Of a stretch of 35,814 nucleotides of DNA, positions 4,669-31,878 are shown piece after piece. Each line of letters starts with the position of its first letter. Position 1 is the first letter of the stretch. The stretch covers positions 1-35,814 of the forward strand of contig JAPWTS010000010.1 of the NCBI GenBank assembly GCA_028275925.1, written 5' to 3'. This stretch comes from Thermofilales archaeon. GTDB taxonomy: Archaea > Thermoproteota > Thermoprotei > Thermofilales > Thermofilaceae. The translations under genes were made by a program, and so were the position numbers. The notes beneath the pieces are model-generated. The model searched no databases and was not told where the DNA came from. It saw only the letters and a list, made by a program, of their open reading frames with translations.

Positions 4669-5599
4669 GCTGCTCGCGGCGCTGCTGCTCGGCGGGGGCC
4701 GCGCCCCGCTCAAGCGCCTGTCCGAGGAGCTGGGAGTGCCCGAAAGCGACCTCCTGGGGGCCGCGATGTCCCTGGCGGCGCGGGGTTACCCCCTCAGGGT
4801 GGAGCGGGGGCTGCTGGAGCTGCGGCCGGCCGACGACCTCAGCGTAGCTGGCGCCTGCGCGGCCCGGCTGGGCACCTCCCTGCGGTTCTCGGTGATCTAC
4901 CTGGAGCGGTGCGGCTCCACGCAGGACGCCGCGAGGGAGCTGGCCGAGAGGGGGGTTGCGGAGGGCGCGGTGGTGGTCGCCGAGGTGCAGGAGGCAGGGA
5001 GGGGGAGGCTGGGGAGGAGCTGGCACTCGGCCGCCGGCGGCATTTACGCGACGGTCGTGCTCAGGCCCCCGCCGCGAGCGCTGCGGGCGCTCAGCCTCGC
5101 CGCGAGCGTCGCCGTAGCCCGGGTCCTGGGGCTGCTCGGGCTCGACGCGAAGGTGAAGTGGCCCAACGACGTGCAGGTTTCGGGGAGGAAGGTCTGCGGG
5201 GTGCTCGTGGAGGCGGCGGCGGAGCCCGGAGGGGCGGTGTACGCGCTCGTGGGCATCGGCCTCAACGTCAACAACGAGCTGCCCCCCGAGCTCGCCGGCG
5301 CGGCCGCCACCCTGAGGGGGCTGCTGGGCAAGCCCGTGCCGCGCCTCCCCCTTTTCCTCAAGCTCCTCGAGGAGCTGGGCGACGTCTACGCCCGGGTGAG
5401 GGAGGGGCGGTGGAGCGAGGTCCTCCGCGAGTGGAGGGGCAGGTCCTCGACGCTCGGCAGGATCGTGCGCGTCGAAACCCCGGAGGGAGCGTTCACGGGC
5501 TTGGCGGTGGACGTGAGCGAGGACGGCGCCCTACTCGTCCGGCTGGAGAGCGGCGAGCTCAGGGAGTTCCACGCCGGCGACGTCGTCCACCTGAGGTAG
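4652..5599 (+). CDS. birA: BirA, biotin-[acetyl-CoA-carboxylase] ligase with N-terminal winged helix
   Basis: 315 residues from GTG 4652 (GTG 4640 is an alternative); the gene overlaps bioY. The enzyme makes biotinyl-AMP and transfers biotin to a carrier-protein lysine. About residues 1-60 form a winged helix (LEDRLLAALLLGG...LSEELGVPESDLLGAAMSLAARGY), so this is a group II BirA able to act as a biotin-responsive repressor. The catalytic domain shows EAGRGRLGRSW (about 114-124), KVKWPNDVQV with the biotin-contacting KWPND (169-173), GRKVCGVLVE and GIGLNVNN. A C-terminal SH3-like domain follows (about 265-315). Co-transcription with bioY couples uptake and use of biotin; autoregulation of the bioY promoter is plausible but no operator was identified. 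Confidence 0.92.
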   Translation: MGLEDRLLAALLLGGGRAPLKRLSEELGVPESDLLGAAMSLAARGYPLRVERGLLELRPADDLSVAGACAARLGTSLRFSVIYLERCGSTQDAARELAERGVAEGAVVVAEVQEAGRGRLGRSWHSAAGGIYATVVLRPPPRALRALSLAASVAVARVLGLLGLDAKVKWPNDVQVSGRKVCGVLVEAAAEPGGAVYALVGIGLNVNNELPPELAGAAATLRGLLGKPVPRLPLFLKLLEELGDVYARVREGRWSEVLREWRGRSSTLGRIVRVETPEGAFTGLAVDVSEDGALLVRLESGELREFHAGDVVHLR

Positions 5600-17780: not shown

Positions 17781-18695
17781 CTAGCTTCCCCAGCTCCTGA
17801 CCAACCGCGCAACCCGCTCGGCCGCGAGCACCACCTCGACGGCGCTGCCCCCGAAGATGTACGTGACCGGCTCCACGCCGCGCCCGCCGAGGTCCACCGC
17901 CACCCTCGGCAGCTTGCCTTTCTCTTTAGCCTCCCTCACGGCGGCGGCTGCGGGGTTGGGCTCCCGGTACCTTTCGCTCGAGAACGCGAACTTCTCGAAG
18001 CCCAGCTCCTCGAGCGCGCGCTCGACCGCTTCGTCGTACTTCACGTTGATGCAGGCCGCGTAGCCCGAGGCCAGCAGGACCTCGGCTAGGTGGCGCGAAG
18101 CCCCGAACCTCGGCCGCCTCCGGGCGACGAGCCTCCCGCCCACTCTCGCCAGCCTGCCGGGCACCGCCGCCACGTCCCTCAAGCTCACCGCGCCGGGAGC
18201 CGCCCGCGCCACGTTCACGAGAACTTCCGGCGCCAGCGCGGCCAGGTTGGGCGAGAGCTCGGCCAGCAGCACGGCCCTCTCGAGGTCGGCCAGAGCCACC
18301 GCCCTCGCCGGCGCGAGCTTCGGGTGAAGGGCCCTCGCGCAGGCCGCGCACTCGAGCAGCACCCACCCCATCCTCCGGTGCGCATCGCACGCGCCGCCGG
18401 AGGCGGAGACGAGCAGCCAGTACCTGTGGAGGAGGGCTGAAGCCATCTCGAGCTCCCCCCTTTCGATCAAGTCGACGGCGGCGGCGACCAGCAGCTCGGC
18501 CTCCAAGTCGTCGATCCCAACCTCCCTCAACCTGCCTTTCCTCGCCTCGCGGAGGAGCTTGCTGACCGCAACCTGCGTGACCCCCAGAACCTTCGCGATC
18601 TCGCTCTGGCTCCACCCCCTCAGCCTCAGCGCGGCGGCGATCTCCGAGCGCAGCGGCGAGAGGAAGCACTCCCTAGCGATCTCGAGAGGGATCAT
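17781..18695 (-). CDS. thiR: ThiR, HTH-ThiN transcriptional regulator of thiamine genes
   Basis: 304 residues from ATG 18695; minus-strand TATA gcttataagg (18717-18726) is 26 bases upstream. Residues 1-60 contain an HTH (RLRGWSQSEIAKVLGVTQVAVSKLLREA, 24-51). A helical, Cys-containing linker (60-150) follows. Residues 150-304 form a ThiN domain with RFGASRHLAEVLL (196-208), INVKYDEAVERALEELGFE (216-234), and VAVDLGGRGVEPVTYIFG. In archaea such fusions use the thiamine-phosphate-synthase-like domain to sense a thiamine phosphate and repress thiamine genes. It is divergent from thiT, and the pseudo-palindrome ATAACC-T-GGTTAT (18698-18710) lies between its TATA box and start codon, indicating autoregulation. 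Confidence 0.9.
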   Translation of the reverse strand: MIPLEIARECFLSPLRSEIAAALRLRGWSQSEIAKVLGVTQVAVSKLLREARKGRLREVGIDDLEAELLVAAAVDLIERGELEMASALLHRYWLLVSASGGACDAHRRMGWVLLECAACARALHPKLAPARAVALADLERAVLLAELSPNLAALAPEVLVNVARAAPGAVSLRDVAAVPGRLARVGGRLVARRRPRFGASRHLAEVLLASGYAACINVKYDEAVERALEELGFEKFAFSSERYREPNPAAAAVREAKEKGKLPRVAVDLGGRGVEPVTYIFGGSAVEVVLAAERVARLVRSWGS

Positions 18696-18697
18696 CG

Positions 18698-18710
18698 ATA
18701 ACCTGGTTAT
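18698..18710. promoter_or_regulatory. Predicted ThiR operator A (thiR)
   Basis: ATAACC-T-GGTTAT, perfect 6-bp arms around one base. It starts 3 bases before the thiR ATG on the minus strand. The same 13 bases, read on the other strand, are found at 29608-29620 next to the ThiN-fusion gene. Confidence 0.7.
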
Positions 18711-18767
18711 GCCTAACCTTATAAGCGTTCCGCTTTTCCGCGCGAGTGAAGGAAGTTTTATAAATTG

Positions 18768-18784
18768 GGTTATAACCGGGTTTG
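18768..18784. promoter_or_regulatory. Predicted ThiR operator B (thiT)
   Basis: GGTTATAACC-GGGTTTG lies just before ATG 18786. It contains TTATAACCGGGTT (18770-18782), exactly repeated on the minus strand at the ykoE promoter (29547-29559). Confidence 0.7.
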
Positions 18785-18785
18785 C

Positions 18786-19310
18786 ATGAGCGCCTCGAAG
18801 GGGGCTGGTAGGGTTAAGGTGCTTGCCGAAGCTGCGGTGCTCATCGCGCTAGCCACCGTGTTGAGCATGTTCAAGGTGTACAGGATGCCGCAGGGCGGCT
18901 CCGTAACCCCCGGCTCGATGGTCCCCATGATCGTCTTCGCGTTGAGGAGGGGTGTGGGCTACGGTTTCGCTGCCGGAGCCGTGTTCGGGCTCGTGCGCCT
19001 CTACCTCGGCCCCTACGTCGTCCACCCGGTTCAGCTCCTCCTCGACTACCCGCTGGCCTTCGGCGCGCTCGGGCTTGCGGGCCTGCTGAGAAAGAGACCT
19101 GTGGCGGCGACCGCGCTCGGCATCTTCGGGAGGTTCCTCTGCCACTGGCTCTCCGGAGTAATCTTCTTCGCCGAGTACGCTCCCGCCGGCCAGCACCCCG
19201 CCCTCTACTCGGCCATATACAACGGCAGCTACCTCGGCGTGGAGCTGGTGATCAGCGCCGCGCTAGTCTACTTGCTGGCGCGATCCGGAGCGCTGAAGGC
19301 TTTCCTCTAA
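18786..19310 (+). CDS. thiT: ThiT, thiamine ECF transporter S-component
   Basis: 174 residues from ATG 18786, fixed by the TATA box 26 bases upstream. A six-helix membrane protein that binds thiamine for an ECF transporter. Family signatures: YRMPQGGSVTPGSMVPMIVFALRRGVGYG (about 32-60; M-P-Q-G-G-S is the ThiT hallmark), LLLDYPLAFGALG (about 88-100), GRFLCHWLSGVIFFAEYAPAG (about 117-137) and the late YNGSYLGVE thiamine-contact region. No EcfA/EcfT gene adjoins, so it needs a shared energising module. Divergent from thiR with an operator over its start, so it should be repressed when thiamine is plentiful. Confidence 0.92.
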   Translation: MSASKGAGRVKVLAEAAVLIALATVLSMFKVYRMPQGGSVTPGSMVPMIVFALRRGVGYGFAAGAVFGLVRLYLGPYVVHPVQLLLDYPLAFGALGLAGLLRKRPVAATALGIFGRFLCHWLSGVIFFAEYAPAGQHPALYSAIYNGSYLGVELVISAALVYLLARSGALKAFL

Positions 19311-19338
19311 GATCCCGAGGAACGATCGATTTAATAGC

Positions 19339-19370
19339 GCTTTTGGGTGAAAAGCCGTTTTATTAAAAAG
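19339..19370. terminator. Bidirectional terminator between thiT and the Zn-dehydrogenase gene
   Basis: gctttt-gggtg-aaaagc (19339-19355) forms a 6-bp hairpin followed by gttttatt on the plus strand; on the minus strand the same site offers ctttttaataaaa. It lies between two convergent genes and can end transcripts from both sides. Confidence 0.5.
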
Positions 19371-19438
19371 TTCGGTGCACGGTTAGAACGAGCTGTGGTT
19401 GCGCGAAGATTCCAAGCTTTGAAGCGTTCGGAAGCGCG

Positions 19439-20461
19439 CTAAGGCTTTAGAACGACCTTTACGGTTTCCTCTTTCCTTTCGTCCAGCATCCTGAAGGCTT
19501 CCGGCCCCTTCTCGAGCGGGAACACGTGGCTGATTATCGGCTTCAGCGCGATCCTCCCGGAGGAGGCTATGCGGACAGCGCGCTGGAACGTGAACGGGCT
19601 CCTGTACGAGCTGACGAGCGTCAGCTCCTTCTCGTAGAGCTCGAAGGGCCTGACCGCCAGCACGTCCTCCTCCGGCGCGACGCCGAACACCAGGACCCTC
19701 CCGCCCCGCCTCGCCAAGGCTATCGCCGTGGATATCGCCTTCGAGCTGCCGACAGCCTCGATCGCCACGTCGACCCCCAAGCCGCCCGTGTCCGCCTTCA
19801 CCGCCTCGACCGGGTTCTCCCTCGCGGCGTTCACCACCACGTCCGCGCCCAGCTGCTTGGCGAGGCTCAGCCTCCGCTCGATCAGGTCGATCGCGTAGAC
19901 GCGGGAGGCCCCCCACATCTTCGCCAGCTGGACCATGAGGAGGCCCACCGGCCCGGCGCCGACGACCGCCACGGTATCGCCCGGCTCGATCCCCACGTTG
20001 TAGAGGCCCCTGACGCAGCACGCGAGAGGCTCGATGAGCGCCGCCTCCTCGAAGCTCATCCAGTCGGGGAAACGGTAGACGTTGGCGGCTGGGACCTTCA
20101 CGTACTCGGCGAAAGCCCCGTTGACGTCGACGCCGACCGCCTTGACGTTCGGGCAGTAGAAGTTCCTCTTCTCCATCCTGCAGTAGTAGCAGCGGCCGCA
20201 CGTGACGTTCGGCTCGGCGACGACGCGGGAGCCGACCTCGACCCACTCGGCGCCCGGCCCCACCTCCTCCACGACGCCGCTGAACTCGTGGCCGGGCACG
20301 AGCGGCGTCTTGACCCTCCACTCGCCCCTGTAGAAGTGGAGGTCGGTGCCGCAGATCCCGCACGCGCCCACCCGGATCAGCACCTCCCCCTCCGAGACCT
20401 TCGGCTCCTCCACCTCCTCCAGCCGCAGATCCCTAACCCCTCTGAGGACGAGGGCCCTCAC
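19439..20461 (-). CDS. Zinc-dependent medium-chain alcohol/sugar dehydrogenase
   Basis: 340 residues from GTG 20461; longer readings extend into the helicase gene, but a minus-strand TATA-like gatatta (20484-20490) is 26 bases before 20461. NAD(P)-dependent MDR enzyme. Catalytic zinc motif GACGICGTDLHFYRGEW and PGHEFSGVVEEVG; structural zinc lobe with four Cys, NVTCGRCYYCRMEKRNFYC; Rossmann motif VAVVGAGPVGLLMVQLAK; then YAIDLIERRLSLAKQLGADVVVNA, where the Asp after YAI favours NAD+. Resembles sorbitol, threonine or glucose dehydrogenases; the substrate is not decided. The start overlaps the helicase stop codon (4 bases), but the internal promoter allows separate expression. Confidence 0.9.
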   Translation of the reverse strand: MRALVLRGVRDLRLEEVEEPKVSEGEVLIRVGACGICGTDLHFYRGEWRVKTPLVPGHEFSGVVEEVGPGAEWVEVGSRVVAEPNVTCGRCYYCRMEKRNFYCPNVKAVGVDVNGAFAEYVKVPAANVYRFPDWMSFEEAALIEPLACCVRGLYNVGIEPGDTVAVVGAGPVGLLMVQLAKMWGASRVYAIDLIERRLSLAKQLGADVVVNAARENPVEAVKADTGGLGVDVAIEAVGSSKAISTAIALARRGGRVLVFGVAPEEDVLAVRPFELYEKELTLVSSYRSPFTFQRAVRIASSGRIALKPIISHVFPLEKGPEAFRMLDERKEETVKVVLKP

Positions 20462-22485
20462 GGGCTGGAGGGCCTGCCGCCGGCTAATATCCCTGCTCTC
20501 GCGCGGAGGAGGCGGTCGCAGTGGCCGAGCCCCTCCGAGCCCGAAGCGAGGCTGAGGACGAGGTTCCACAGCGCAGCTGTGTTCTTGAGCGCGAACTCGA
20601 TCTGCTTCGCGTTCTTCGCCATGAAGGGGCCGTAGTCGGCCGCGAGCGTGAGGCGCACCTCCCTCCCGTCGACGGGGATGAGCGCTGCCTCGACCCTGAA
20701 CCTCCACTTGACCATCGCCGCCGGGTTCTCGAGGGCGAGGAGGCGGATCGCCTCGGCGAAGTCGCGCGGCTTCGCGGAGGACGCGAGGAGCCTGAGCAGC
20801 TCGACCCTCAGCCTGTGCGCGGCCCCCTCGCTCGCGCCCTTCACCTTGAGGTCGTTGAGGGGGTCGAAGCAGGGGGTCGCGTCGGCGAAGCTCTCGGGCG
20901 AAGCCCTAGCCCCCTCCTCCGCCTCCTCGACGGGGATGAACCTCCTGTGCCCGGCGCCGAGCCTCACGTAGGCTTCGGGCGCGCCTGCCTCCACCCAGCT
21001 CTGGAGCTCCGCGTAGACTTCGCTCACGTCGTAGTACGGGAGCAGGGCGCCGACCCTCACGCTCTCGTCCAGCTCCCTCGCAACCCTCCTGTAGGCCCGG
21101 AGGCCGCGGGCGCCCGCGAGCGCGCTGATGATGACCTCCCCGCTCACGCCCCTCGCTCCCAGGCTTTCGGCGAGCTCCTTCACCTTGCGCGCCATCAAGA
21201 GCCCCTCCCCCAGCACCTGCGAGCTGACCTCGTCGAAGATGCCCGACACGTCGATGCCCTCGCGGGCTAGCGCCACGAGGCTCTCGGGGAGGGCGTCGTA
21301 GTCGCGGGTGCCCGGCGTCACGATGAACACCGTGTACTTTATCTTGTCGGGCGCCGGCCGCAGCCCCCTGCCGAGGCGCTGGTAGAGCCTCAGGGGCGAA
21401 GATACGTGGGACCAGAAGATCAGGAGGTCGACCTCGGGGATGTCGATGCCCTCGTCGCCCGCCGACGTCGCGATGATCAGCTTCGCCTCCGGCCTCCTCG
21501 CCTCCTCGAGCGCGCTCCTGCGCGCCTCCGGGTCCGCGGCCCCCCTGCCGCCGACGATCTTGACCGGGTTCAGCTCCTTGAACCGCTCGGCGAGGAGGTC
21601 GGCCGTGCACCTCCTGTTCACGAACACGATTGCCTTCTCGAAGTTGCCCTCGTAGTCGGCTAGCACGCTCTCGAGCACGGGCAGCTTGTGGGGCTCCGGC
21701 GGGATCGGCGCGAGCGGGGCGATCGCCTGGAGGAAGTTGGCGAAGGCGGTCGGCCGGGCTGCGGAGTCCAGCAGCGCGTCGCTCCCGTCCCTGCTCAGCG
21801 TCGTCAGCGCGAGGGCCGCGAAGTGCGAGTCGGGGCTCCCGCTCAGCCAGACTTCGTAGAGCCTCTCGTAGAGCTCCTCCTCCTCGCGCCTGAAGGGCGC
21901 CTCGTACACCTCAGCGATCATGTACGGCTTCTCGTACCCCTTCCCCTCGAGCTCGCTGAAGTCCCACTTCCTGATGGGGCCGATGTACCGCTCGATCTCC
22001 CAAGCCCTGCTCTTCGGCACGAGCGCCGAGAGCCCGAGCTTCACCGACTGCTCCAGGTAGCGCATCACCTGCGCGAACGGGTCCCTCCCCACCGTATGGT
22101 GGCACTCGTCCACGATCACGACGGGGAACTCGCTCGACGCGTCGCCGCCCTCCCCGTACCGCTGCTGCAGGTAGCTGAGCGCCGACTCGGGCGTCGCGAC
22201 GACGACCCGCTTGCCCCAATCCCTCTCCCTGACGCCGGAGTGCACCATCGACGCGTCCAACCCCTCGTACCTGAACTTCCTGGCCGTCTGCTCGACGAGG
22301 AAGCGGGTCGGCTCCAGCACGAGGACCCTCGCCCCCCGCTGCGCGTACCGCTCGGCGAACGCGACGGCGACCAGCGTCTTCCCCGTGCCGGTGGGCAAGC
22401 TGACGACCGCGCCGCCGCGAGCCTCCGCTACCCTCAACGCCCACTCGAGGGCTTCGCGCTGGTACGGTCTCAGCTTGCTTCTCAT
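20458..22485 (-). CDS. SF2 DEAD/DEAH helicase (Hef/XPB-like)
   Basis: 675 residues from ATG 22485; minus-strand TATA-like agtataat (about 22521-22530) stands 40 bases upstream, giving a short leader. Two RecA-like domains: YQREAL Q-motif region, motif I LPTGTGKTLVA (30-40), Ia LVLEPTRFLVEQ, II VIVDECHH (123-130), then in domain 2 KAIVFVNRRCTADLLAERF (284-302), IIATSAGDEGIDIPEVDLLIFW (337-358) and VI QRLGRGLRP (369-377). Motifs resemble archaeal Hef/FANCM and XPB helicases. The C-terminal 280 residues are mainly helical and carry no visible ERCC4 nuclease domain. The expected role is remodelling of branched DNA or RNA. Coding-sequence neighbours are metabolic. Confidence 0.88.
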   Translation of the reverse strand: MRSKLRPYQREALEWALRVAEARGGAVVSLPTGTGKTLVAVAFAERYAQRGARVLVLEPTRFLVEQTARKFRYEGLDASMVHSGVRERDWGKRVVVATPESALSYLQQRYGEGGDASSEFPVVIVDECHHTVGRDPFAQVMRYLEQSVKLGLSALVPKSRAWEIERYIGPIRKWDFSELEGKGYEKPYMIAEVYEAPFRREEEELYERLYEVWLSGSPDSHFAALALTTLSRDGSDALLDSAARPTAFANFLQAIAPLAPIPPEPHKLPVLESVLADYEGNFEKAIVFVNRRCTADLLAERFKELNPVKIVGGRGAADPEARRSALEEARRPEAKLIIATSAGDEGIDIPEVDLLIFWSHVSSPLRLYQRLGRGLRPAPDKIKYTVFIVTPGTRDYDALPESLVALAREGIDVSGIFDEVSSQVLGEGLLMARKVKELAESLGARGVSGEVIISALAGARGLRAYRRVARELDESVRVGALLPYYDVSEVYAELQSWVEAGAPEAYVRLGAGHRRFIPVEEAEEGARASPESFADATPCFDPLNDLKVKGASEGAAHRLRVELLRLLASSAKPRDFAEAIRLLALENPAAMVKWRFRVEAALIPVDGREVRLTLAADYGPFMAKNAKQIEFALKNTAALWNLVLSLASGSEGLGHCDRLLRARAGILAGGRPSSP

Positions 22486-22537
22486 GCCCCCTTTTTCCCA
22501 GAGACCGCGCGCCGAGAGCTATTATACTTAGCGCGCG

Positions 22538-23539
22538 CTAACCTCTCTCAGCGCTGCGCTCGTTGAGCGCGCGCACGGCCTCGGCGAGGTTCCTGAGCTT
22601 GGCGAGAGCCACCCTGTAGGCGTCGGGGACCCCCCTGAGGCCCCCCAAACCGCAGTCGCCGCTGAACAGGTTCACGCGCTCCGGCCCCACGGCCTCGAGG
22701 ATGCGGGTCGCCAGATCCAGCATCTCCCCCACGCTCTCGACCTCGGCCTTCTTCGTGCTGAAGACGCCGGGGCTGAGGAACTTGTCGCCCCTTTCCAGGA
22801 CCCTGCGCCAGGGGATGGAGAGGTTGGCTGGCGTGTCGTGGAACTCGTGGTTGAGGAAGTCGAGGCTCTCCGACTCGGCCAGCAGCGAGGCGAGCCTCTC
22901 GTTCACCTGCCCGCAAACGTGGGTCCCCCGCGGCAGCCCGGCGGCCGGCTTGAGCTCGCGCGCGTAGGCTTCGAGGATGTCCTCGTCGCGGTAGCCGAAC
23001 AGCGTCACCCTGCCCCCCACCACCGTCCCCAGCACCGGCTCGTCGATCACCACGACGGCGCCGGGCAGCTCGGCGGCAGCCCTGACGGCGTTGGCCACGT
23101 AGCCGGCCAGCGCGTCGGCCACCAGCTCCCTGTCGGCGAGCGCCGTGCTGCGCATCCCGCGGGAGGGGTCGCCCACGTACACGCGGGACGCGAGCGTGAA
23201 CGCGCCCGTAACCGGAACCCGCATCCGCTTGACGCCCAGCTCCCTCGCGAGCTTAGAAACCACCTCGAACTCCGGTAGCTTGGGGCGGACCTTGGCGGCC
23301 TCCTCGAGATCCTCGCGCCTCGCCTTGAAGACTGTGCCCGAGGCCTCGACAATGCCGGCGTCGGCGAGCGGCTGGAGGTACATCGAGACGAAGTCCCTCA
23401 GCTGCGGGACGGGCGGCACGTCCAGGCCGGCGGCGGCGAGGTCGCGGAAAGCCCGCTCGAAGCTCTCCGGGCTGTACTCGAGGGGTAGGCTGCCCACGTG
23501 GCTCGAAACGTACCTGTCGAAGAACTTCTCCCAAGCCAT
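22538..23539 (-). CDS. Archaeal core MetE-type methionine synthase
   Basis: 333 residues from ATG 23539; minus-strand TATA tttatat (23564-23571) lies 28 bases upstream, favouring this over GTG 23548. It corresponds to the catalytic C-terminal half of cobalamin-independent methionine synthase. The four zinc ligands are all found at family spacing: H207 and C209 (GTHVCGQVN), E232 (DFLNHEFHDT) and C296 (FSGDCGLGG). Other family marks are SSHVGSLP at the start and VVVIDEPVLG. Archaeal short MetE proteins methylate homocysteine with a still debated methyl donor. No corrinoid protein or folate gene adjoins. Single gene. Confidence 0.88.
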   Translation of the reverse strand: MAWEKFFDRYVSSHVGSLPLEYSPESFERAFRDLAAAGLDVPPVPQLRDFVSMYLQPLADAGIVEASGTVFKARREDLEEAAKVRPKLPEFEVVSKLARELGVKRMRVPVTGAFTLASRVYVGDPSRGMRSTALADRELVADALAGYVANAVRAAAELPGAVVVIDEPVLGTVVGGRVTLFGYRDEDILEAYARELKPAAGLPRGTHVCGQVNERLASLLAESESLDFLNHEFHDTPANLSIPWRRVLERGDKFLSPGVFSTKKAEVESVGEMLDLATRILEAVGPERVNLFSGDCGLGGLRGVPDAYRVALAKLRNLAEAVRALNERSAERG

Positions 23540-23637
23540 CCGGGCCACCCGCGCAAGCTCGCGATATAAACTGAGCGCTTGGCAGGGCGTTGGTTTCGCG
23601 CGCTACAGGGTGCTGGGGGGCCGTGCGCGAGAGCGCG

Positions 23638-25128
23638 CTAAGAGGCCACGTCCCTCGAGTACAGCAGCTCCGCGGCCACCTCGACCCCCACGAAGAGCAC
23701 GAGCGCCGCAAGCGCGAAGCTCGCGGCGAGGTACAGCGGCAGCCAGGGGCTCCCCGTCTCCACGAGCGAGCCGAAAAGCGCGGCGGCGAGCAGCAGGGGG
23801 GCCGCGGAGGCTAGGGCGGCTGACAGGAGCCACTCCTCGGGCACCGTGAGCCCCTCCTGCGTGTGCTTGACCAGCCTCTTCCTGGGGATTATGAGCGCGA
23901 CCGCGGCGAGGGTGCCGACCGACGAAGCGCAGGCGAAGGGGAGGTTGGCTAGCGGGAAGAGCAGGTACTCGAGCCGCCCCGAGAGCGCCGCGGCGAAGGC
24001 GGAGAGCGCCAGCGCCGCCTCGCTCAGGTAAACCGTTTGCTTGAGCGCCACAGCCGCCGCCAGGGCCCTCAGGTCCGCGCAGTTGACCCTGTAGAACCAG
24101 AGGGGGCCGAGGTCGAACGCCGCAACCCCCAGCAACATCCCGACGGATACCGACGCGAACCACACCAGAACCATGCCCGGCTTGATCGCCTCGGCCAGCC
24201 CGAAGCGGGCGAGCGCGAACCCCAGCGCGGCGAGGGAGGCTGTAGCCGCGGCGACGAGGGCCGCGTGCCTCCTCGTGGCGAAGGCCCGCTTGAGGTGGAG
24301 CTCGAAGATCGCCGAGCGGGGGTCGCTCGAAAAGGACAGCTCCGGGCCCCCAACCTCCTCGGCGGCGACCTCGCTCAGTAGCTTCATCATCTCCGGGTGC
24401 GCGAACCTCTCCGAGAGTAGCGCGTATGCCGCCGAGGAGGCGGCGCAGGCGGCGGCGAGCGGCAGGCTCTCGGCCAGCACCTGCCACCACGGCTCGCTTA
24501 GCGTGAAGCAGAGCACGATGGGGCGGGCGATCCACCTCAGCGGGGCGGTGAGGAGGGGCGAGAGGGAGCGGAGGGCGGCGGAGTGCAGCACCCCCGCCGC
24601 CAGGTAGGCGAGGAGCGGCGCCGAAACCCAGCGCGCGCCCGCGAGGGCGGCCGCGAGCCCCAGGACCCCCGTCGCGGTCTCCAGGAAGAGGTGGGCTAGC
24701 GCGAGCGTCGGCAGCAGGAGCGCGGCTTTAGCGCCGGGGCCCAGGAAGGGGGCCGCGAACGCGAGCGAGAACGCGAAGCTCGCCCCTCCCTCGAGGGCCT
24801 CCCTCACCGAGCTAGCTAAGAGGTACGCGCGCACGCTGACCGGCTGGGTTAGGAGGAGGTCGCGCTCCGCCGCCTTCTTGACGACGAGCTGCCCGCGCCC
24901 AGGGGCGCCGACGAGCGCGGTTACCGCCAGGTACGCCAGCAGGGCGGCGCTCGCGTACTCCTCGGCCTCCCGCTTGGTGATGCCCAGCGCGCTCGGCTGG
25001 AGGAGCCTGATGGGGGGAGCCAGCGCCGCGATGGCGACCGTGGCGGCGGTCAGGGCTGCCAGCACGTAGTGGGCCCGGTCGTCCTTCAGGAGGGCTTCCA
25101 GCACCGCGAGGAAGGTCCTAGCCGGCAC
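23638..25128 (-). CDS. ABC transporter permease, large ABC-2-like membrane protein
   Basis: 496 residues from GTG 25128, overlapping the upstream ATPase gene by 11 bases. Strongly hydrophobic with roughly 12 membrane segments, suggesting two six-helix halves in one chain. A central soluble part (about residues 240-285: RFAHPEMMKLLSEVAAEEVGGPELSFSSDPRSAIFELHLKRAFATRR) is cytosolic and links the halves. The first loop has VVKKAAERDLLLTQPVSVRAYLL, typical of the coupling segment in ABC-2 exporters of archaea, where a large permease gene follows its ATPase gene. The substrate is unknown. Confidence 0.8.
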   Translation of the reverse strand: MPARTFLAVLEALLKDDRAHYVLAALTAATVAIAALAPPIRLLQPSALGITKREAEEYASAALLAYLAVTALVGAPGRGQLVVKKAAERDLLLTQPVSVRAYLLASSVREALEGGASFAFSLAFAAPFLGPGAKAALLLPTLALAHLFLETATGVLGLAAALAGARWVSAPLLAYLAAGVLHSAALRSLSPLLTAPLRWIARPIVLCFTLSEPWWQVLAESLPLAAACAASSAAYALLSERFAHPEMMKLLSEVAAEEVGGPELSFSSDPRSAIFELHLKRAFATRRHAALVAAATASLAALGFALARFGLAEAIKPGMVLVWFASVSVGMLLGVAAFDLGPLWFYRVNCADLRALAAAVALKQTVYLSEAALALSAFAAALSGRLEYLLFPLANLPFACASSVGTLAAVALIIPRKRLVKHTQEGLTVPEEWLLSAALASAAPLLLAAALFGSLVETGSPWLPLYLAASFALAALVLFVGVEVAAELLYSRDVAS

Positions 25129-25864
25129 CGCCGCCCACCAGCTTCAGGTAAACCTCCTCGAGCGCCGCGTCCGCGCCGGCCCCCACCCTGCTCCTGATCT
25201 CGTCGAGCGCGCCCTCCGCCAGCAGCCTCCCCCCGCTGATGATGCCGACCCTCGTGCAGAGCCGCTCGACCATGGGAAGCTGGTGGCTCGAGATGATCAC
25301 CGCAGCGCCCTTTCTCGCGAACCTCGCAACCTCCTCCCTGAACGCGCGCTGAGCCTCCGGGTCCATCCCGGACATCGGCTCGTCCATCACGAGCACGTCG
25401 GGCTCCGGCAGGAAGGCGGCTACGGCCAAAACCTTCTGCGCGTTACCCCTCGAGAGCTTCCCCATCCTCTTCCCCAGCTCCCCCTCGAGGTCGAACAGCT
25501 GGACGTAGCGCTTCAACCTTTCCTCGAAAACCTCGCGGGGGATCCCCCTCAGCGAGGCGACGAGCCTGAAGAACTCGATCACCTTCAGGTTCTCGAAGAC
25601 CACGGGGTTCTCGGGCACGTAGCCCACGCGCCGGAGAGCCCGCTCGCGCTCCGCTACCACGTCGACCCCGCAAACCCTCACGAGGCCGCTGTCCGGCCTC
25701 AGGAGGCCGACGATGATCTTCAGCGCGGTCGTCTTGCCGGCCCCGTTCGGCCCCAGCAGCCCGTAGATCTCGCCCGGCCTGACGGTCAGCGTGACCCCCC
25801 TCAGCGCGCGGAGCCGGCCGTACGACTTCGAGACGTTGACTAGCTCGATGCCGCCGCAGGCCAC
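25118..25864 (-). CDS. ABC transporter ATP-binding protein
   Basis: 248 residues from GTG 25864; the minus-strand gcttttccc (25887-25895) fits a leaderless start. Motifs: Walker A GLLGPNGAGKTTALK (about residue 36), Q-loop replaced by GYVPENPVVFENLKVIEFF (Glu instead of Gln), signature KLSRGNAQKVLAVAAFL (S-R-G-N rather than S-G-G-Q), Walker B VLVMDEPMSGMDP, switch IISSHQL. The deviating signature is common among archaeal export ATPases. Together with the permease at 23638-25128 it makes one exporter. Confidence 0.92.
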   Translation of the reverse strand: MACGGIELVNVSKSYGRLRALRGVTLTVRPGEIYGLLGPNGAGKTTALKIIVGLLRPDSGLVRVCGVDVVAERERALRRVGYVPENPVVFENLKVIEFFRLVASLRGIPREVFEERLKRYVQLFDLEGELGKRMGKLSRGNAQKVLAVAAFLPEPDVLVMDEPMSGMDPEAQRAFREEVARFARKGAAVIISSHQLPMVERLCTRVGIISGGRLLAEGALDEIRSRVGAGADAALEEVYLKLVGGGAG

Positions 25865-25900
25865 GCGCGCACCTTAAAAGGTGGAGGGAAAAGCCTTGCC
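25865..25900. promoter_or_regulatory. Short divergent promoter region
   Basis: Thirty-six bases separate the divergent ABC ATPase gene and the small gene at 25901. accttaaaaggt (25871-25882) is a near palindrome whose ttaaaa core is 25 bases before GTG 25901. On the other strand gcttttccc (25887-25895) is 26 bases before GTG 25864. The two core promoters are interleaved, so the two transcripts probably compete. Confidence 0.45.
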
Positions 25901-26170
25901 GTGGCTTGGCGTCTCTCCAAGCCGGCGGCAAGGATCGAGCTGGCGCGCAGGCTGAGGGAGAGGGGCTTCTACGTCCGGTGGCACGCCTACGAGTTCCTCC
26001 TCGGCTACCGCGGCCGGCTGGTCGGCACGCTCCTCCTCGAGCCCAGCAGGGGGCGGGCAACGCTCTACTGCAGGCGGGGAGCCCCGCTCGCCGAGATCGA
26101 GCGCGCGCTAAGGGAGGCGCTGAGCGAGGTGGCGGGTGGCGTGGAGCTTGAGGTCGGCGAAGTCGGCTAA
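25901..26170 (+). CDS. Small hypothetical protein upstream of a DUF123 gene
   Basis: 89 residues from GTG 25901, placed by the TATA element 25 bases upstream. Basic N-terminal half (PAARIELARRLRERGFYVRWHAYEFLLGYRGRLVGTLLLEP) that predicts helix then strands, followed by LYCRRGAPLAEIERALREALSEV. It might be a small nucleic-acid-binding or nuclease-helper protein. It overlaps the DUF123 gene by 35 bases, so the two probably form one operon. I do not recognise a family. Confidence 0.65.
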   Translation: MAWRLSKPAARIELARRLRERGFYVRWHAYEFLLGYRGRLVGTLLLEPSRGRATLYCRRGAPLAEIERALREALSEVAGGVELEVGEVG

Positions 26171-26636
26171 ACCGGCGGTCGGAGAGCTGCCGAGGATCCC
26201 GGGGGTTTACGCTCTGCTGCTGCTCCTGAGGGGGCCAGCCACCGTCAGGGTCCGCGGGCGCGCTTGGAGGCTGGAGCCGGGCTGCTACGTGTACGTCGGC
26301 TCGGCGAGGGGGCCTGGGGGGCTGCGAGCCAGGGTCGCGAGGCACGCGGCATCCGAGAAGCGGGTCAGGTGGCACGTGGACCAGCTCACCAGCGGAGCAG
26401 CCGAGCTCGCCTGCGTCGTCTACGCGGAAGCGGCGGCGAGGGAGTGTGTCCTGGTCCCCCACCTCGAGCGGCTCGGCTTCGGGCACCCGGTTCCCGGCTT
26501 CGGCTCGAGCGACTGCGGGAACTGCCGCTCGCACCTGCTGCGCTGCCCCCGCGGCTGCGGGGGGTGCGCCGAGCTGGTGGAGGAGGCCTTCAGGAGAGCA
26601 GGCCTCGAGCCGAGGCCCCTCCAGCTCGAAGCGTAG
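26136..26636 (+). CDS. DUF123 (GIY-YIG-like) nuclease-family protein
   Basis: 166 residues from GTG 26136. DUF123 proteins of archaea are related to GIY-YIG nucleases: here PGVYALLLLLRG (23-34) supplies the first strand (G-V-Y), and PGCYVYVGSARGPGGLRARVARH the second (Y-V-Y-V-G-S-A then Arg). The following KRVRWHVDQLTSGAAELACVVYAEAAARECVL has the W-H-V-D-x-L motif and the Glu-rich region typical of the family. C-terminal GSSDCGNCRSHLLRCPRGCGGCAE contains six cysteines, more than usual, and could hold zinc or an iron-sulfur cluster. Cellular role unknown; DNA processing is assumed from the fold. Convergent with ykoC, 4 bases apart. Confidence 0.85.
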   Translation: MAWSLRSAKSAKPAVGELPRIPGVYALLLLLRGPATVRVRGRAWRLEPGCYVYVGSARGPGGLRARVARHAASEKRVRWHVDQLTSGAAELACVVYAEAAARECVLVPHLERLGFGHPVPGFGSSDCGNCRSHLLRCPRGCGGCAELVEEAFRRAGLEPRPLQLEA

Positions 26637-26640
26637 CACA

Positions 26641-27357
26641 CTACTGAAAGAGAGACACGGCTGTCGCTAGGGCGATCGCCGCGCCGTAGAGCCCAGCGAA
26701 AACCCAGTCGCGCTTGTGCACCTTCGTGGGTCTCACGTACGTGCGGTGCGGGAGCTTGCCGAAGCCCCTCGACTCCATCGCGATCGCCAGCAGAGTGGCC
26801 CTCCTAACGGAAAGGTAGAGGAGGGGCATAGAGAGCGAGAGCAGGTAGCGGTGAGGGTGCTTCCAGCTCGTGTAGCCTTTAACCCGCCTGAACGCCACCA
26901 TGTTCTCGAGATCCCCGAGGACGATGGGGGCGGACCTGAGGGTCACGAACGACATGAAGGCGTAGACGTAGGGGACCTTCAGCTGCAGCGAGAGGGAGCT
27001 CGCGAGCGCGGCTGGGTCCGTCGTGCCGGCGAAGAACGCCGAGTAGAGGATTATCGCGGCGATCCTGGCGTCCAGCAGCAGCACCCTGGCCAGTGCCTCG
27101 CCGGGGGCCAAGCCCAGGTTGGCCACGAACAGCACGAAGTTGACCCACGTGTACCCGGCGAGCGTCGCGAGCGCGCCCAGCGCGAAGACGCGCCGGACCC
27201 TCACCCTCCCCAGGGCTACGAGCGCCGCGGCGACGAGCAGGTGGGCGAGCAGCACCGCCGCGCTAGAGAGCAGCGCCGCGTGCAAGACCCCGGCTAGCAC
27301 CGCGAGCAGCTTCACGGAGGGGTTCAGCTCCCTCAGCTCACGCTCCAAGGTCCTCAT
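26641..27357 (-). CDS. ykoC: YkoC, ECF transporter transmembrane (T) component
   Basis: 238 residues from ATG 27357. EcfT-like energy-coupling membrane subunit with about five or six segments (LLAVLAGVLHAALLSSAAVLLAHLL near 18-42; TLAGYTWVNFVLFVANLG near 63-80; IAAIILYSAFFAGT near 98-111). Two cytosolic coupling helices end in charged motifs: YVYAFMSFVTLRSAPIVLGDLENMV and LLAIAMESRGFGKLPHRTYVRP, the latter carrying the conserved A-x-E-x-R-G-F. It overlaps the ATPase gene by 20 bases as the third gene of the ykoE-ykoD-ykoC operon, and should couple ATP hydrolysis to thiamine/HMP uptake. Confidence 0.88.
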   Translation of the reverse strand: MRTLERELRELNPSVKLLAVLAGVLHAALLSSAAVLLAHLLVAAALVALGRVRVRRVFALGALATLAGYTWVNFVLFVANLGLAPGEALARVLLLDARIAAIILYSAFFAGTTDPAALASSLSLQLKVPYVYAFMSFVTLRSAPIVLGDLENMVAFRRVKGYTSWKHPHRYLLSLSMPLLYLSVRRATLLAIAMESRGFGKLPHRTYVRPTKVHKRDWVFAGLYGAAIALATAVSLFQ

Positions 27358-28939
27358 GGAGGCACCCGAGCCGGGCGGAGTACTCGGAGACCGCCTCCTC
27401 CGGGCCGTGCTCCTCGAGGAGCTTGAGCGCGTACCTCGGCGGGAGGAAGCCCAGCTCGCCCCAGAGGCCTCTGCGCGCGAGGAGCTCGCGCAAGTCGCCC
27501 TCGAACACGACTCGGCCCTTTGACAGCCCGTAGACCCTCGGGTTCAGGAGGAAGAGCAGCCACGAGTCGTGCGTCACCAGCACCACGGTCTTGCCCCGCT
27601 TCACGAGCCCCCCGATCTCGGCGGCGACGAGCGAGCTGTACTTCATGTCCAAGCCGAACGTCGGCTCGTCCAGGAGGTAGACCCTCCTCTCGAGGAGCTC
27701 CATCTCGAGGAACGACACGAGCCTCTTCTCGCCCTGGCTCAGCTCGTACACGACCGCTTCGGAGAGCTCGCCCAAGCCCCTCGCCTCGAGCAGCTCGCGG
27801 GCCCTCCGCAGCGCCTCACCCCCCCTCAAGCCCTGCGACCGCAGCGCGGAGGCGAGCTCCTCCGCCACCGTGCGCTCCGTGAACTGCAGCTCCGGGACCT
27901 GGGCGACGAAGGCCACCTTGCTGGGGTGCGGGGGCCCTCCCGCGACGCTCACGCGCCCGGAGTACCTGCGGACGAGGCCCGCGAGGACTTTCAGCAGCGT
28001 GGTCTTCCCGCTCCCGTTAGGCCCCAGAACCGCTACCAGCTCCCCCCTCCTCGCCTCGAGGCTCACATCCGAGAGGGCGGTGATAGAGCCGAACCTCACC
28101 GTTAACCCTTCGACCTTGACGTCGAGGTCGCCCCCCGGCCCGCCGGCGCCGGCGACCCGGCTGCCGCGCGCGCACGGCGCGTACTCCGGGGGGATCCAGA
28201 CCCCCTCTGCGGCGAGCCTCTCGGCGCCCACCTCCCCCACGAGGTCGCGGATCGAGGGGTAGACCCTGCTAGTCCCATCGCCGCGGATGTACACGACCTT
28301 GTCCGCGAGCTCCTCCGCCAGCTCGACCCTGTGCTCCACGACGACCACGGTCTTGCCCTCCCGCTTGAGCTCCCCGAGAACCCCGTAGATCTCCCTGGCG
28401 GTGCGCATGTCGATGTGCGCTGTGGGCTCGTCGAGGAGCAGCACCTCAGGGTCCAGCACGAGCGCGCTGGCGATCGCGAGCCTCTGCTTCAAGCCCGTGG
28501 ACAGCGTCTCCACCCTGCGGTCGCTGTACTCCTCCAAGCCCACGAGCTCGAGCGCCCGGCGGGCCCGCCTCTCCACCTCGCTGGGGGGTAGCGCCAGGTT
28601 CTCGCCCGGGAAGTACGCCTCCTCGATCACCGTGGGCATGACGTACTGGGACTCGGGGTCCTGGAAGACCACCCCAACGGTCCCCGCCAAGCCGGCGAGC
28701 CCCTCCTCGGCCGGGGAGCGCCCGGCCACCTTGACCAGCCCCTCGACCCTCGCCGGGATGAGCGAGGGGATGGCGCCGGCCAGCGTCAGGAGGAGCGTGG
28801 TCTTGCCGCTGCCCGTGGGGCCCACGACGAGCACGAACTCGCCCCTACGGGCTTCGAACGAAACCCCGCTCAGCGCGTAACCCTTGGCCAGGGGGTAGGC
28901 GACCTTGAGGTCGCGCACGAGCACTACGGGCTCGCTCAT
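27338..28939 (-). CDS. ykoD: YkoD, duplicated ECF ATP-binding protein
   Basis: 533 residues from ATG 28939, overlapping the ykoE stop (4 bases). Two complete ABC cassettes in one chain. First: Walker A GPTGSGKTT near residue 39, signature LSTGLKQRLAIA, Walker B VLLLDEPTAHID, switch VVVEHRVE. Second, starting near 275 (KVEGLTVRFGSITALSDVSL): Walker A GPNGSGKTT, signature LSQGEKRLVSFLE, Walker B VYLLDEPTFGLD, switch LVTHDSW. This fused EcfA1-EcfA2 arrangement is characteristic of YkoD. The first cassette's signature has Thr for the first Gly (S-T-G). It powers transport together with YkoC and YkoE. Confidence 0.93.
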   Translation of the reverse strand: MSEPVVLVRDLKVAYPLAKGYALSGVSFEARRGEFVLVVGPTGSGKTTLLLTLAGAIPSLIPARVEGLVKVAGRSPAEEGLAGLAGTVGVVFQDPESQYVMPTVIEEAYFPGENLALPPSEVERRARRALELVGLEEYSDRRVETLSTGLKQRLAIASALVLDPEVLLLDEPTAHIDMRTAREIYGVLGELKREGKTVVVVEHRVELAEELADKVVYIRGDGTSRVYPSIRDLVGEVGAERLAAEGVWIPPEYAPCARGSRVAGAGGPGGDLDVKVEGLTVRFGSITALSDVSLEARRGELVAVLGPNGSGKTTLLKVLAGLVRRYSGRVSVAGGPPHPSKVAFVAQVPELQFTERTVAEELASALRSQGLRGGEALRRARELLEARGLGELSEAVVYELSQGEKRLVSFLEMELLERRVYLLDEPTFGLDMKYSSLVAAEIGGLVKRGKTVVLVTHDSWLLFLLNPRVYGLSKGRVVFEGDLRELLARRGLWGELGFLPPRYALKLLEEHGPEEAVSEYSARLGCLHEDLGA

Positions 28940-29532
28940 CGCGCGATGCCCTTCACCTCCCTGCCCACCGCGAACGCGTCCAGGATAGAGGAGCTCCTCG
29001 CGACGTAGTCCACGAGGGCCTTCACCAGAACTCCCGCGATCAGCGCGCCGCTCACGAAGTAGAGCGACCAGAACACGAGGCGCTGCTCGCCCGTCAGCGG
29101 CTCAACGATGCCGTAGAGCAGCGCGTCGGCGGGCGCCGCCCAGAGCGCCGGCGCGGCGCCGGCTGCCGCCATCGCGGCCCACCCCCACCTCCTGTACCCG
29201 GTAGCCGCCAGCGCGAGCTCCGACATCAAGCCCTGCATGAAGCCGTAGAGGAGCACGGTGGAGGCGAACTGGCTCCCGTACGCCAGCTCGAACACGGCGG
29301 CGAGGAACTCGCCGAGGAGCGCCACGCCGGGCTTCCGGATGATGTAGGCGGGCAGCGTGGCGCCGATGAACCACACCCCGTAGATCACCGGCGTGTAGAG
29401 CAGCCCGAGCGTAAGCTGAGCGAGATCCCACACTACGTTGGACCAGAACAGGAACACTGCGCCGACCAGCGCTGAGAGCACCGCCGTGAACGTGAGCTCC
29501 ACCGTTGTGAGCTTCCGGCCCCCGCTGGCCAC
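28936..29532 (-). CDS. ykoE: YkoE, thiamine/HMP ECF transporter S-component
   Basis: 198 residues from GTG 29532; minus-strand TATA gtttataacc (29553-29562) is 26 bases upstream. Membrane protein with about six segments. YkoE hallmarks are VFLFWSNVVWDLAQLT, the run VIYGVWFIGATLPAYIIRKPGVALLGEFLAAVFELAYGSQFAS (about 49-91), and LLYGFMQGLMSELALAATGYRRWG (about 94-117). The family takes up thiamine or its pyrimidine precursor HMP. The predicted ThiR operator ACAACC-C-GGTTAT (29545-29557) overlaps its TATA box. First gene of the ykoEDC operon and divergent from the ThiN-fusion gene. Confidence 0.9.
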   Translation of the reverse strand: MASGGRKLTTVELTFTAVLSALVGAVFLFWSNVVWDLAQLTLGLLYTPVIYGVWFIGATLPAYIIRKPGVALLGEFLAAVFELAYGSQFASTVLLYGFMQGLMSELALAATGYRRWGWAAMAAAGAAPALWAAPADALLYGIVEPLTGEQRLVFWSLYFVSGALIAGVLVKALVDYVARSSSILDAFAVGREVKGIAR

Positions 29533-29544
29533 GGCCCCCTCTCG

Positions 29545-29557
29545 ACAACCCGGTTAT
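29545..29557. promoter_or_regulatory. Predicted ThiR operator C (ykoE)
   Basis: Plus-strand ACAACC-C-GGTTAT, one mismatch from the perfect palindrome. On the minus strand it sits within TTATAACCGGGTT (29559-29547), identical to the thiT site. It overlaps the ykoE TATA box and lies 13 bases before its start codon. Confidence 0.7.
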
Positions 29558-29607
29558 AAACCTGCCCGCGTTGTCGGCGGGAAGAGGGAACGACTCGCGA
29601 GTACCAT

Positions 29608-29620
29608 ATAACCAGGTTAT
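29608..29620. promoter_or_regulatory. Predicted ThiR operator D (ThiN-fusion gene)
   Basis: ATAACC-A-GGTTAT, the exact reverse complement of operator A at thiR. It overlaps the TATA-like ccatataacc (29604-29613) and stands upstream of the fusion gene, 71 bases before GTG 29692. Confidence 0.7.
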
Positions 29621-29691
29621 TGGGTCAGCTCCCGCGGCGCGCTGCAAAGCTTGAAAATCGGTCGACGCCGGTAGCCGAGGGGGTGCCGGCC

Positions 29692-31074
29692 GTGGAGGTG
29701 GGTAAGCTGGGTTTCGCCGCGCTGAGGAGGGTTCTCGAGGAGGCCGGCGTGAAGCCGGAGCTCGACGCGAACGAGGTGGACGGGCTCCTCGCCGCGGTGA
29801 ACCCCGCCGTCGGCGTCCCGGACGAGCTCCTGGGCTTCTTCGCCTTCCACTACTCCGCCTCGAACGTCGCAGCCGCCTTCGGCAAGCCGGAGTTCGCTTT
29901 GCTGGACCTCGTGCTCCCGCCCGGCTACCCGGAGGAGAAGGCCCTCTCCATCGTCCGAGCCTTCGCCAGCGAGTGCAAGAGGTACGGGGTCAAGCTTGTG
30001 GGCGGGCACACGGGCCGCTACGAGGGCGCGGAGTACCCCATAGCCTCGTCCACCGTGCTCGGGAGGCGGGTTAGGGTGAGGAGGGCGCCGGGGGAGGGTG
30101 ACGAGGTCTACCTGGTGGGGGTCGTGGGGGCGGAGGCCGCGTGGCTCGCGGGGGCTGAGGTGGAGGTTGAGGAGCTGACGCCGCTGCCCAAGGCGCTGAA
30201 GCTGCACGGAGCGGAGCGCCTCAAGCTGCTCCACGACGTGTCCGAGGGAGGGCTGCTCGGGGCGCTGCTGGAGGTGAGCGCGTTCTACCGCCGCGTGCTG
30301 AGCGTCGAGAGGGGCAGGGTGCCGATCCACCCGCGCGCGCCGAGGCTGGGGGAGCCGCTGTCGCTGCCCAGCTACGGGGCGCTGGTGGCGGTGGCGGAGG
30401 AGGGCTCGCGGCTCGAGGACTTCTGCGTGGGGGAGGGCCTCGAGTGCCGCTTAATCGGGCGGGTCGGCGGGGAGGGGGTGGGGGTCGAGGTCGACGGGGT
30501 GCTGCTCCGCGCCGCCCCCCAGAGCGAGCTCGTAGCCCTCTACGCGCCCTCCGTCGCCGGCAAGGGGGAGGCAGCCGCTGTGGCGCTCGCGGCGAGCAAG
30601 CTGGTCAAGCTGAGCGGCTTGGAGAGGTTCGTGCCGGAAGTGGGGGCGAACATCGCCTACGCGAAGCCCGGCGCCCAGGTCGAGGAGGACGTGGCAGCGA
30701 TCGAGGGGAGGATCGTCAGGACGGCGCGCGGCCTGCGCGTCTGCGGCAAACCGGCTTACGGGGCTTCCAGGCACCTCGCGCGCGTGCTCATCGAAGCGGC
30801 GCAGCGGGACCCGCGGCGGAGAGCCGCCGTCAACCTGAAGCCGGCGCCGGAGCTCATCGGCGCGCTGGAGAAGCTCGGCTTGAGGGTGGCGAGGGTGGAG
30901 CCGCGCGGCGCGTGCCCCGTCGCGGAAGCGATCGCCGCCGGGGTCGAGGCGGACGCCTACTATTACGAAGCGGCGCTGGGGCTGGAGCCCTCGCTCGTGA
31001 TCCTGGCGGAGGACCCCTTGAGCCTGGTGTCGCTGCTCGAGAAAGCCCTCTCGCTGCTCCAGCGCGGGGCTTGA
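29692..31074 (+). CDS. PurM/ThiL-like domain fused to ThiN (thiamine-phosphate synthase-like) domain
   Basis: 460 residues from GTG 29692, with a gaggggg element 8 bases before it (29677-29683); GTG 29683 and 29698 are alternatives. Residues 1-300 resemble AIR-synthase/HypE/ThiL proteins: FAFHYSASNVAAAFGKPEF (51-69), YGVKLVGGHTGRYEG (98-112), HDVSEGGLLGALLEV (181-195) and PSYGALVAVAEEG. The N-terminal GDDAA metal/ATP motif of ThiL is not visible, so ATP use is uncertain. Residues about 305-460 form a ThiN domain with VPEVGANIAYAKPGAQ, AYGASRHLARVLIEA (355-369) and AVNLKPAPELIGALEKLG. ThiN can join HMP-PP and thiazole phosphate to thiamine phosphate. Location beside ykoEDC and the operator place it in thiamine salvage or synthesis; the N-terminal reaction is unknown. 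Confidence 0.82.
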   Translation: MEVGKLGFAALRRVLEEAGVKPELDANEVDGLLAAVNPAVGVPDELLGFFAFHYSASNVAAAFGKPEFALLDLVLPPGYPEEKALSIVRAFASECKRYGVKLVGGHTGRYEGAEYPIASSTVLGRRVRVRRAPGEGDEVYLVGVVGAEAAWLAGAEVEVEELTPLPKALKLHGAERLKLLHDVSEGGLLGALLEVSAFYRRVLSVERGRVPIHPRAPRLGEPLSLPSYGALVAVAEEGSRLEDFCVGEGLECRLIGRVGGEGVGVEVDGVLLRAAPQSELVALYAPSVAGKGEAAAVALAASKLVKLSGLERFVPEVGANIAYAKPGAQVEEDVAAIEGRIVRTARGLRVCGKPAYGASRHLARVLIEAAQRDPRRRAAVNLKPAPELIGALEKLGLRVARVEPRGACPVAEAIAAGVEADAYYYEAALGLEPSLVILAEDPLSLVSLLEKALSLLQRGA

Positions 31075-31135
31075 CGCCCCGGGCGCCGCGGCGAGGGCGC
31101 AAAGCCTTATCCCGTCTCTCTATGCGCGGGCCCTC

Positions 31136-31807
31136 GTGGGAGCCCGCAAGCGCGTGGTCGAGCTGTTCGATAGCGTAGCGAAGAGCTACGACGAGTGGTA
31201 CGCCCAACCGGCCGGGCGGGTCGTGCTGCGGACGGAGGCCAGGATGCTCGACGCGGTGCTGCCGGAGGGCGTCGGGGCGGAGGTGGGAGCTGGCACGTGC
31301 GTCTTCCCGCCCCTGCTCTCCCGCGGCAGGGAGATCGTCTGCCTCGAGCCCTCGCTGGGCATGCTCGGCTTGGGCCGCGGCAGATGCCTCCACCCGGTCG
31401 CCGGCACGGCGGAGGAGCCCCCCGTCCGGCCCGGCTCCCTGGACTTCGCCTACATGGTGACCGTGCTCGAGTTCCTCGAGGACCCGCTGGAAGCCGTCCA
31501 AGCTGTGCGGGGCTTGCTGAAGCGGGGCGGCGTGCTGGCCGTTCTCTTCATCGAAAGGGAGAGCCGGTGGGGGAGGCTCTACGCGGAGCTCGCGGAGAAG
31601 CGCGCGGACCCCGTCCTCGCCGCTGCCCGCTTCCTGACGCTGAGGGAGGTGCTCGAGCTAGTGGAGCGCGCGGGCCTCAGGGTGAAGCGCGTCCTGCAGG
31701 CGCTCGACTACGAGCCGCTCACCGTGCCGGAGGCCGAACCGCCTGTATACGAGGGAGGCTCGTGCGGCGATTGCGGGGTAGCCCTCGTCGCTGCCGCGCG
31801 AGAGTAG
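31136..31807 (+). CDS. SAM-dependent class I methyltransferase
   Basis: 223 residues from GTG 31136, 28 bases after the TATA-like ccttatcc (31104-31112). Starts VVELFDSVAKSYDEWYAQPAGRVV, common in UbiE/Methyltransf_11 proteins. Motif I GAEVGAGTCVFPPLL (near 48-62), acidic end of strand two VCLEPSLGML, motif III/IV LDFAYMVTVLEFLEDP (about 102-117) and post-motif LKRGGVLAVLFIERES. The end contains SCGDCGVALV, two Cys that might bind metal. The substrate is unknown. Separated by 60 bases from the ThiN-fusion gene, with its own promoter. Confidence 0.87.
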   Translation: MGARKRVVELFDSVAKSYDEWYAQPAGRVVLRTEARMLDAVLPEGVGAEVGAGTCVFPPLLSRGREIVCLEPSLGMLGLGRGRCLHPVAGTAEEPPVRPGSLDFAYMVTVLEFLEDPLEAVQAVRGLLKRGGVLAVLFIERESRWGRLYAELAEKRADPVLAAARFLTLREVLELVERAGLRVKRVLQALDYEPLTVPEAEPPVYEGGSCGDCGVALVAAARE

Positions 31808-31878
31808 GTTCCCGCGCTTCGGCTCCGCTTCAGTTTACGCGTGGGAACTCCTTTTAAATCGCGCTCCCCTCGGCTTGC

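Follow-up and report, generated by a model that had tools for sequence, protein, structure and literature searches.

The closest described systems are the ThiR regulons of archaea. Rodionov and colleagues reportedly described in 2017 an archaeal regulator that combines a helix-turn-helix (HTH) with a ThiN domain, and palindromic operators at genes for the transport and synthesis of thiamine. Work on Haloferax volcanii ThiR by Hwang and colleagues from the same year is said to have found leaderless targets, an operator shared by different archaeal phyla and a ThiN helix that is shorter in ThiR than in ThiDN. ThiN domains of the non-catalytic type are distinguished by a shorter helix following the GASxH motif. 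In other organisms, thiamine genes commonly have TPP riboswitches. Two papers cite ThiR control of thiamine genes in archaea as established (PMC12029414, PMC10746257), and a third describes Haloferax volcanii ThiR as a repressor of thi4 and thiC (PMC8305020). The Thermofilales genome analyzed here, that of a heat-loving member of the Thermofilaceae, carries a comparable locus within a stretch of 35,814 nucleotides (the window; contig JAPWTS010000010.1), and a ThiR regulon with autoregulation that comprises thiR, thiT and ykoE is strongly supported by the sequence features reported below. An HTH-ThiN regulator and palindromic operators at thiamine genes are common to this locus and the regulons of Rodionov and colleagues. 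In contrast to those, the Thermofilaceae possess a family-wide operator and paired sites, and the Thermofilales genome has a doubled thiT site, lacks sites at thi4 and thiDN and acquired its regulated transporter operon by transfer. The HTH-ThiN architecture, leaderless targets and short ThiN helix of the Haloferax volcanii repressor likewise resemble the Thermofilales protein, whose predicted targets are however transporters and thiR itself instead of thi4 and thiC. Control by ThiR has been known in archaea before; the exact Thermofilaceae operator, its paired layout and the evidence for an acquired transporter are added here, and provide this family with a minimal vitamin B1 uptake regulon and an operator that can be tested.

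The thiR gene (17781..18695, minus strand) encodes an N-terminal HTH, a CxxH...CxxC linker and a C-terminal ThiN-like domain. Pfam matches were obtained for HTH_3 (1.6e-5) and ThiN (1.3e-37), and the protein thus shows the combination of N-terminal HTH and C-terminal ThiN domain expected of ThiR. In the AlphaFold model (pLDDT 91) the ThiN fold matches 2php and helices span residues 30-37 and 41-49. The ThiN domain carries a five-residue deletion relative to ThiDN and to the AIRS-ThiN fusion protein and fits the non-catalytic type by its shortened helix. ThiDN, a thiD-ThiN fusion encoded on another contig of this genome (C129), has the ThiN domain in common with ThiR but is an enzyme made up of a kinase and ThiN and not a regulator, and its gene has no upstream operator. 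A CxxH-x(6-16)-CxxC motif is located between the HTH and ThiN domains (18339-18389, minus strand). The motif is also found in 83 of 89 distant thiR loci and is kept across archaeal phyla, with C103, H106, C116 and C119 invariant within the family. This conservation suggests that it represents a structural metal site.

The operator word is rare in the genome and concentrated in the window. All four words described by the initial annotation were found in place, with ATAACCTGGTTAT at 18698-18710, ATAACCAGGTTAT at 29608-29620 and TTATAACCGGGTT at 18770-18782 (plus strand) and again at 29547-29559 (minus strand). Allowing up to 3 mismatches, ATAACCNGGTTAT has 7 matches in the window against 1.7 expected, a number reached by 0 of 100 shuffled windows. 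Pattern searches of the genome (1.95 Mb in 142 contigs, 95% complete) returned 5 sites for AACCNGGTTAT and 0 for the reversed control. Four of the five are those of the initial annotation, and the fifth (C32:100138) was set aside as coding, being located within a small ORF without a link to thiamine. With up to 1 mismatch, ATAACNNNGTTAT occurs at 9 sites in the whole genome compared to 4 for the control, and none of the sites beyond the window resembles a thiamine promoter. We also ran a matrix over the window for which 13 relatives supplied 36 operator sites and the genome under study supplied 0. Its five top 13-mers are those at 29608, 18698, 18761, 29545 and 18772, while first-order Markov windows contain a mean of 0.12 matches that score as high as the lowest-ranked of the five. 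The third-best match, at 18761, is a second thiT operator that the initial annotation had overlooked.

Operators at thiR, thiT and ykoE are located at or directly after the TATA box. The thiR operator (ATAACCAGGTTAT read on the minus strand, 18698..18710) occupies positions -15 to -3 from the ATG, downstream of a TATA box at 18719-18724 (minus strand), and is also there in the two sister genomes (G001, G002). The thiT gene (18786..19310, plus strand; PF09515 1.2e-49; TIGR02357 over its cut-off) encodes the S component of a thiamine ECF transporter and is preceded by two overlapping operators standing 11 bp or one helical turn apart. The upstream copy (TAAATTGGGTTAT, 18761..18773, -25 to -13) overlaps the TATA box at 18757-18762, an arrangement resembling ykoE of two relatives (G004, G007), and is positioned as the proximal sites of relatives are; the downstream copy (ATAACCGGGTTTG, 18772..18784) covers -14 to -2. 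ykoE (28936..29532, minus strand; PF09819 2.8e-31) encodes the substrate-binding component of a predicted HMP/thiamine ECF transporter and is accompanied by genes for a ykoD-like double ATPase (27338..28939, minus strand; two PF00005 stretches; 75% identity to the relative G016) and a ykoC-like ECF T component of the CbiQ family (26641..27357, minus strand; PF02361; 82% identity to the G016 copy). The proximal ykoE operator (ATAACCGGGTTGT on the minus strand, 29545..29557, -25 to -13) overlaps the TATA box at 29555-29560 (minus strand) and is kept in relatives. The centre of the TATA box precedes the start codon by 26.5 bp in both thiR and thiT and by 25.5 bp in ykoE, and the three transcripts are therefore probably leaderless.

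The remaining site, 29608..29620 (ATAACCAGGTTAT), has its centre 63 bp from that of the proximal ykoE operator and was assigned by the initial annotation to a fourth regulated promoter, that of a divergent gene encoding an AIRS-AIRS_C-ThiN fusion (29692..31074, plus strand; probable start GTG 29692 by alignment with relatives). The site is a perfect palindrome in the region between the two genes, ATATAA is found on its plus strand side, the fusion gene itself encodes a ThiN domain, and ThiR bound there could contact both the ykoE and fusion promoters. An operator of the fusion gene, possibly shared with ykoE, is nevertheless an unlikely reading. The site sits 72 bp upstream of the probable fusion start, outside the TATA-to-start interval, and no operator with up to 1 mismatch was found upstream of nine fusion orthologues with readable upstream DNA, one of them in a genome without thiR (G008); incomplete gene matches left G005, G007 and G010 out of this count. 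In addition, all ten relatives with ykoE possess a further site, located upstream and separated from the proximal one by 53-55 bp in eight and 74-75 bp in two, so that the simplest reading of 29608 is a distal operator of ykoE. Membership of the fusion gene in the predicted regulon is consequently not supported, and of the four promoters originally proposed those of thiR, thiT and ykoE stand.

The operator accompanies thiR throughout the family. Each of the other 13 thiR-carrying genomes of the family has at least two ATAACNNNGTTAT-like words (up to 2 mismatches) before this gene. thiR is divergent from thiT in four genomes (the Thermofilales genome, G001, G002 and G006) and from ykoE in ten other family genomes, and operators of the ATAACNNNGTTAT type are also present at the promoter of the divergent partner. 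Two well-covered genomes without thiR (G003, G008) likewise lack thiT and ykoE. Exact ATAACNNNGTTAT matches at unrelated places occur in AT-rich relatives, in several at about the frequency of the reversed control. These further matches are mostly coding or belong to a repeated element and were set aside, with the cytX operon of G013 as the only plausible additional regulon member. The repeated, mostly non-coding element of G015 and G012 (L126, L127, L129, L131-L134) contains ATAACNNNGTTAT embedded in a longer conserved block, TATTTTAAA.GTTCGCA ... GTTCCA, and is probably unrelated to ThiR. Outside the family, among 160 palindrome arms with one G/C compared in 89 thiR upstream regions, the arm ATAAC is found at 11 of 89 loci and the next best arm at 4, which is to be read as enrichment and not as a probability because the loci are related. 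The 11 loci include Thorarchaeota, Thermoplasmata, Haloarcula and others, and the operator is therefore not particular to this lineage.

Judged by gene order and trees, ykoC, ykoD, ykoE, the AIRS-ThiN gene and a methyltransferase gene (31136-31807) form a horizontally acquired insert (26637..31878) between the DUF123 and NUDIX genes. In the sister genomes G001 and G002 DUF123 is directly beside NUDIX, and the order thiR-thiT-ADH-helicase-metE-DUF123-NUDIX-flippase is kept. In trees, thiR clusters with its own genus, whereas ykoE and AIRS-ThiN cluster with a genus-g7 genome, G016, to which they are 86% and 84% identical. A chimeric contig was considered as the source of the g7-like block and is unlikely because native genes flank it on each side. 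The acquired ykoE operators are retained and the spacer between them aligns poorly with G016, indicating that the operators persisted while the intervening DNA changed after gene transfer. A second block, 23638-25864, encoding a putative permease and an ABC ATPase, is also absent from the otherwise collinear G001 and G002.

Distances within proximal/distal operator pairs, the thiR/thiT pairs included, fall into the ranges 53-55, 63-66 and 74-76 bp, corresponding to about 5, 6 and 7 helical turns. With relatives collapsed to five (or six) independent spacings, the phase coherence for a period of 10.5 bp is 0.88 (p about 0.01 versus uniform spacing). In the Thermofilales genome the ykoE and thiR/thiT pairs are each exactly 63 bp apart if the upstream thiT copy is used; the thiR/thiT distance is 74 with the downstream copy. 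No helical phase was seen over all intersite distances in genus g7 (R 0.12), and the spacing pattern, which is suggestive only, is for this reason confined to the proximal/distal pair. A tentative extension, on balance doubtful, is that two ThiR dimers interact on one DNA face through operators in register and that the acquired ykoE pair was re-spaced from the 54 bp of the donor lineage to the 63 bp found in the host's thiR/thiT pair. If true, the foreign ykoE operon would represent a case of regulatory capture tuned by spacing. The spacing rule is open to direct in vitro testing.

Taken together, ThiR is very probably a thiamine-phosphate-sensing repressor that acts on ATAACNNNGTTAT at thiR, thiT and ykoE-ykoD-ykoC. 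We infer that ThiR, probably as a dimer, binds the palindrome between the TATA box and start codon of these genes and that the ligand-bound protein would keep the transcription machinery from assembling, acting by repression rather than activation. The uptake genes and thiR would then be expressed only at low thiamine phosphate levels. Operator pairs standing about 5, 6 or 7 turns apart suggest that two dimers on the same DNA face could cooperate. The word is tied to ThiR by co-occurrence and by its autoregulatory position, and the operators could in principle belong to another regulator of the same genes. This is very unlikely given that the word is present at thiR in every family genome with thiR, is found at differing partners (thiT, ykoE and, in G013, cytX) and is enriched at thiR in other phyla.

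The proximal operators overlap or adjoin TATA boxes, as would be expected if the words were extended TATA/BRE promoter elements that need no regulator. The other TATA-like words of the window (16 TATA-like hexamers; matrix scan) are however not accompanied by the operator word, the distal sites have no TATA role, and the two-fold symmetry has been conserved while the spacer has not, making this explanation still less probable than a different regulator. Control of thiR, thiT and ykoE by a thiamine riboswitch, the common arrangement elsewhere, has a negligible likelihood here, as no TPP riboswitch (THI element) or other Rfam riboswitch match was obtained within the window and the leaderless-looking promoters leave no space for one. 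ThiR acting at the palindromes is thus the preferred reading.

Regulon content suggests that uptake would be the controlled step. ThiC was found in 1 of 17 family genomes and was not found in the Thermofilales genome, and most Thermofilaceae therefore probably have to import pyrimidine or thiamine. The predicted regulon would accordingly act on uptake of thiamine through ThiT and probably of HMP through the Yko system, as judged by its family. The initial annotation had named enrichment at other thiamine genes such as thiD and thi4 as support for the regulon. In the Thermofilales genome no operator was found at thiDN or at a gene presumed from its sequence to be thi4, and searches at thi4/thiDN of G000, G002 and G003 and at thiC of G001 were likewise negative. 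Operator-marked biosynthesis genes (thi4, thiC, thiDN) are consequently missing from the Thermofilales genome, while in G013 an exact operator precedes a cytX-thiDN-thiW operon, all of whose members are salvage genes. Regulon content varies, and unmarked thi4 and thiDN thus do not exclude membership of the Thermofilales protein in the ThiR family. Another vitamin transporter gene of the window, a BioY family biotin transporter, overlaps an ORF resembling biotin-protein ligase (3982-5599).

The AIRS-ThiN fusion was also considered as a ThiL-ThiN thiamine-phosphate kinase/synthase and rejected, its AIRS domain scoring far below the cut-off for the ThiL kinase (TIGR01379, 43 bits versus 184). AIRS-ThiN and the SAM methyltransferase (29692-31807) are conserved neighbours in the family, separated by 11-62 bp in G008, G004 and the Thermofilales genome and by about 0.9 kb in g7, and the pair may have a role other than thiamine synthesis.
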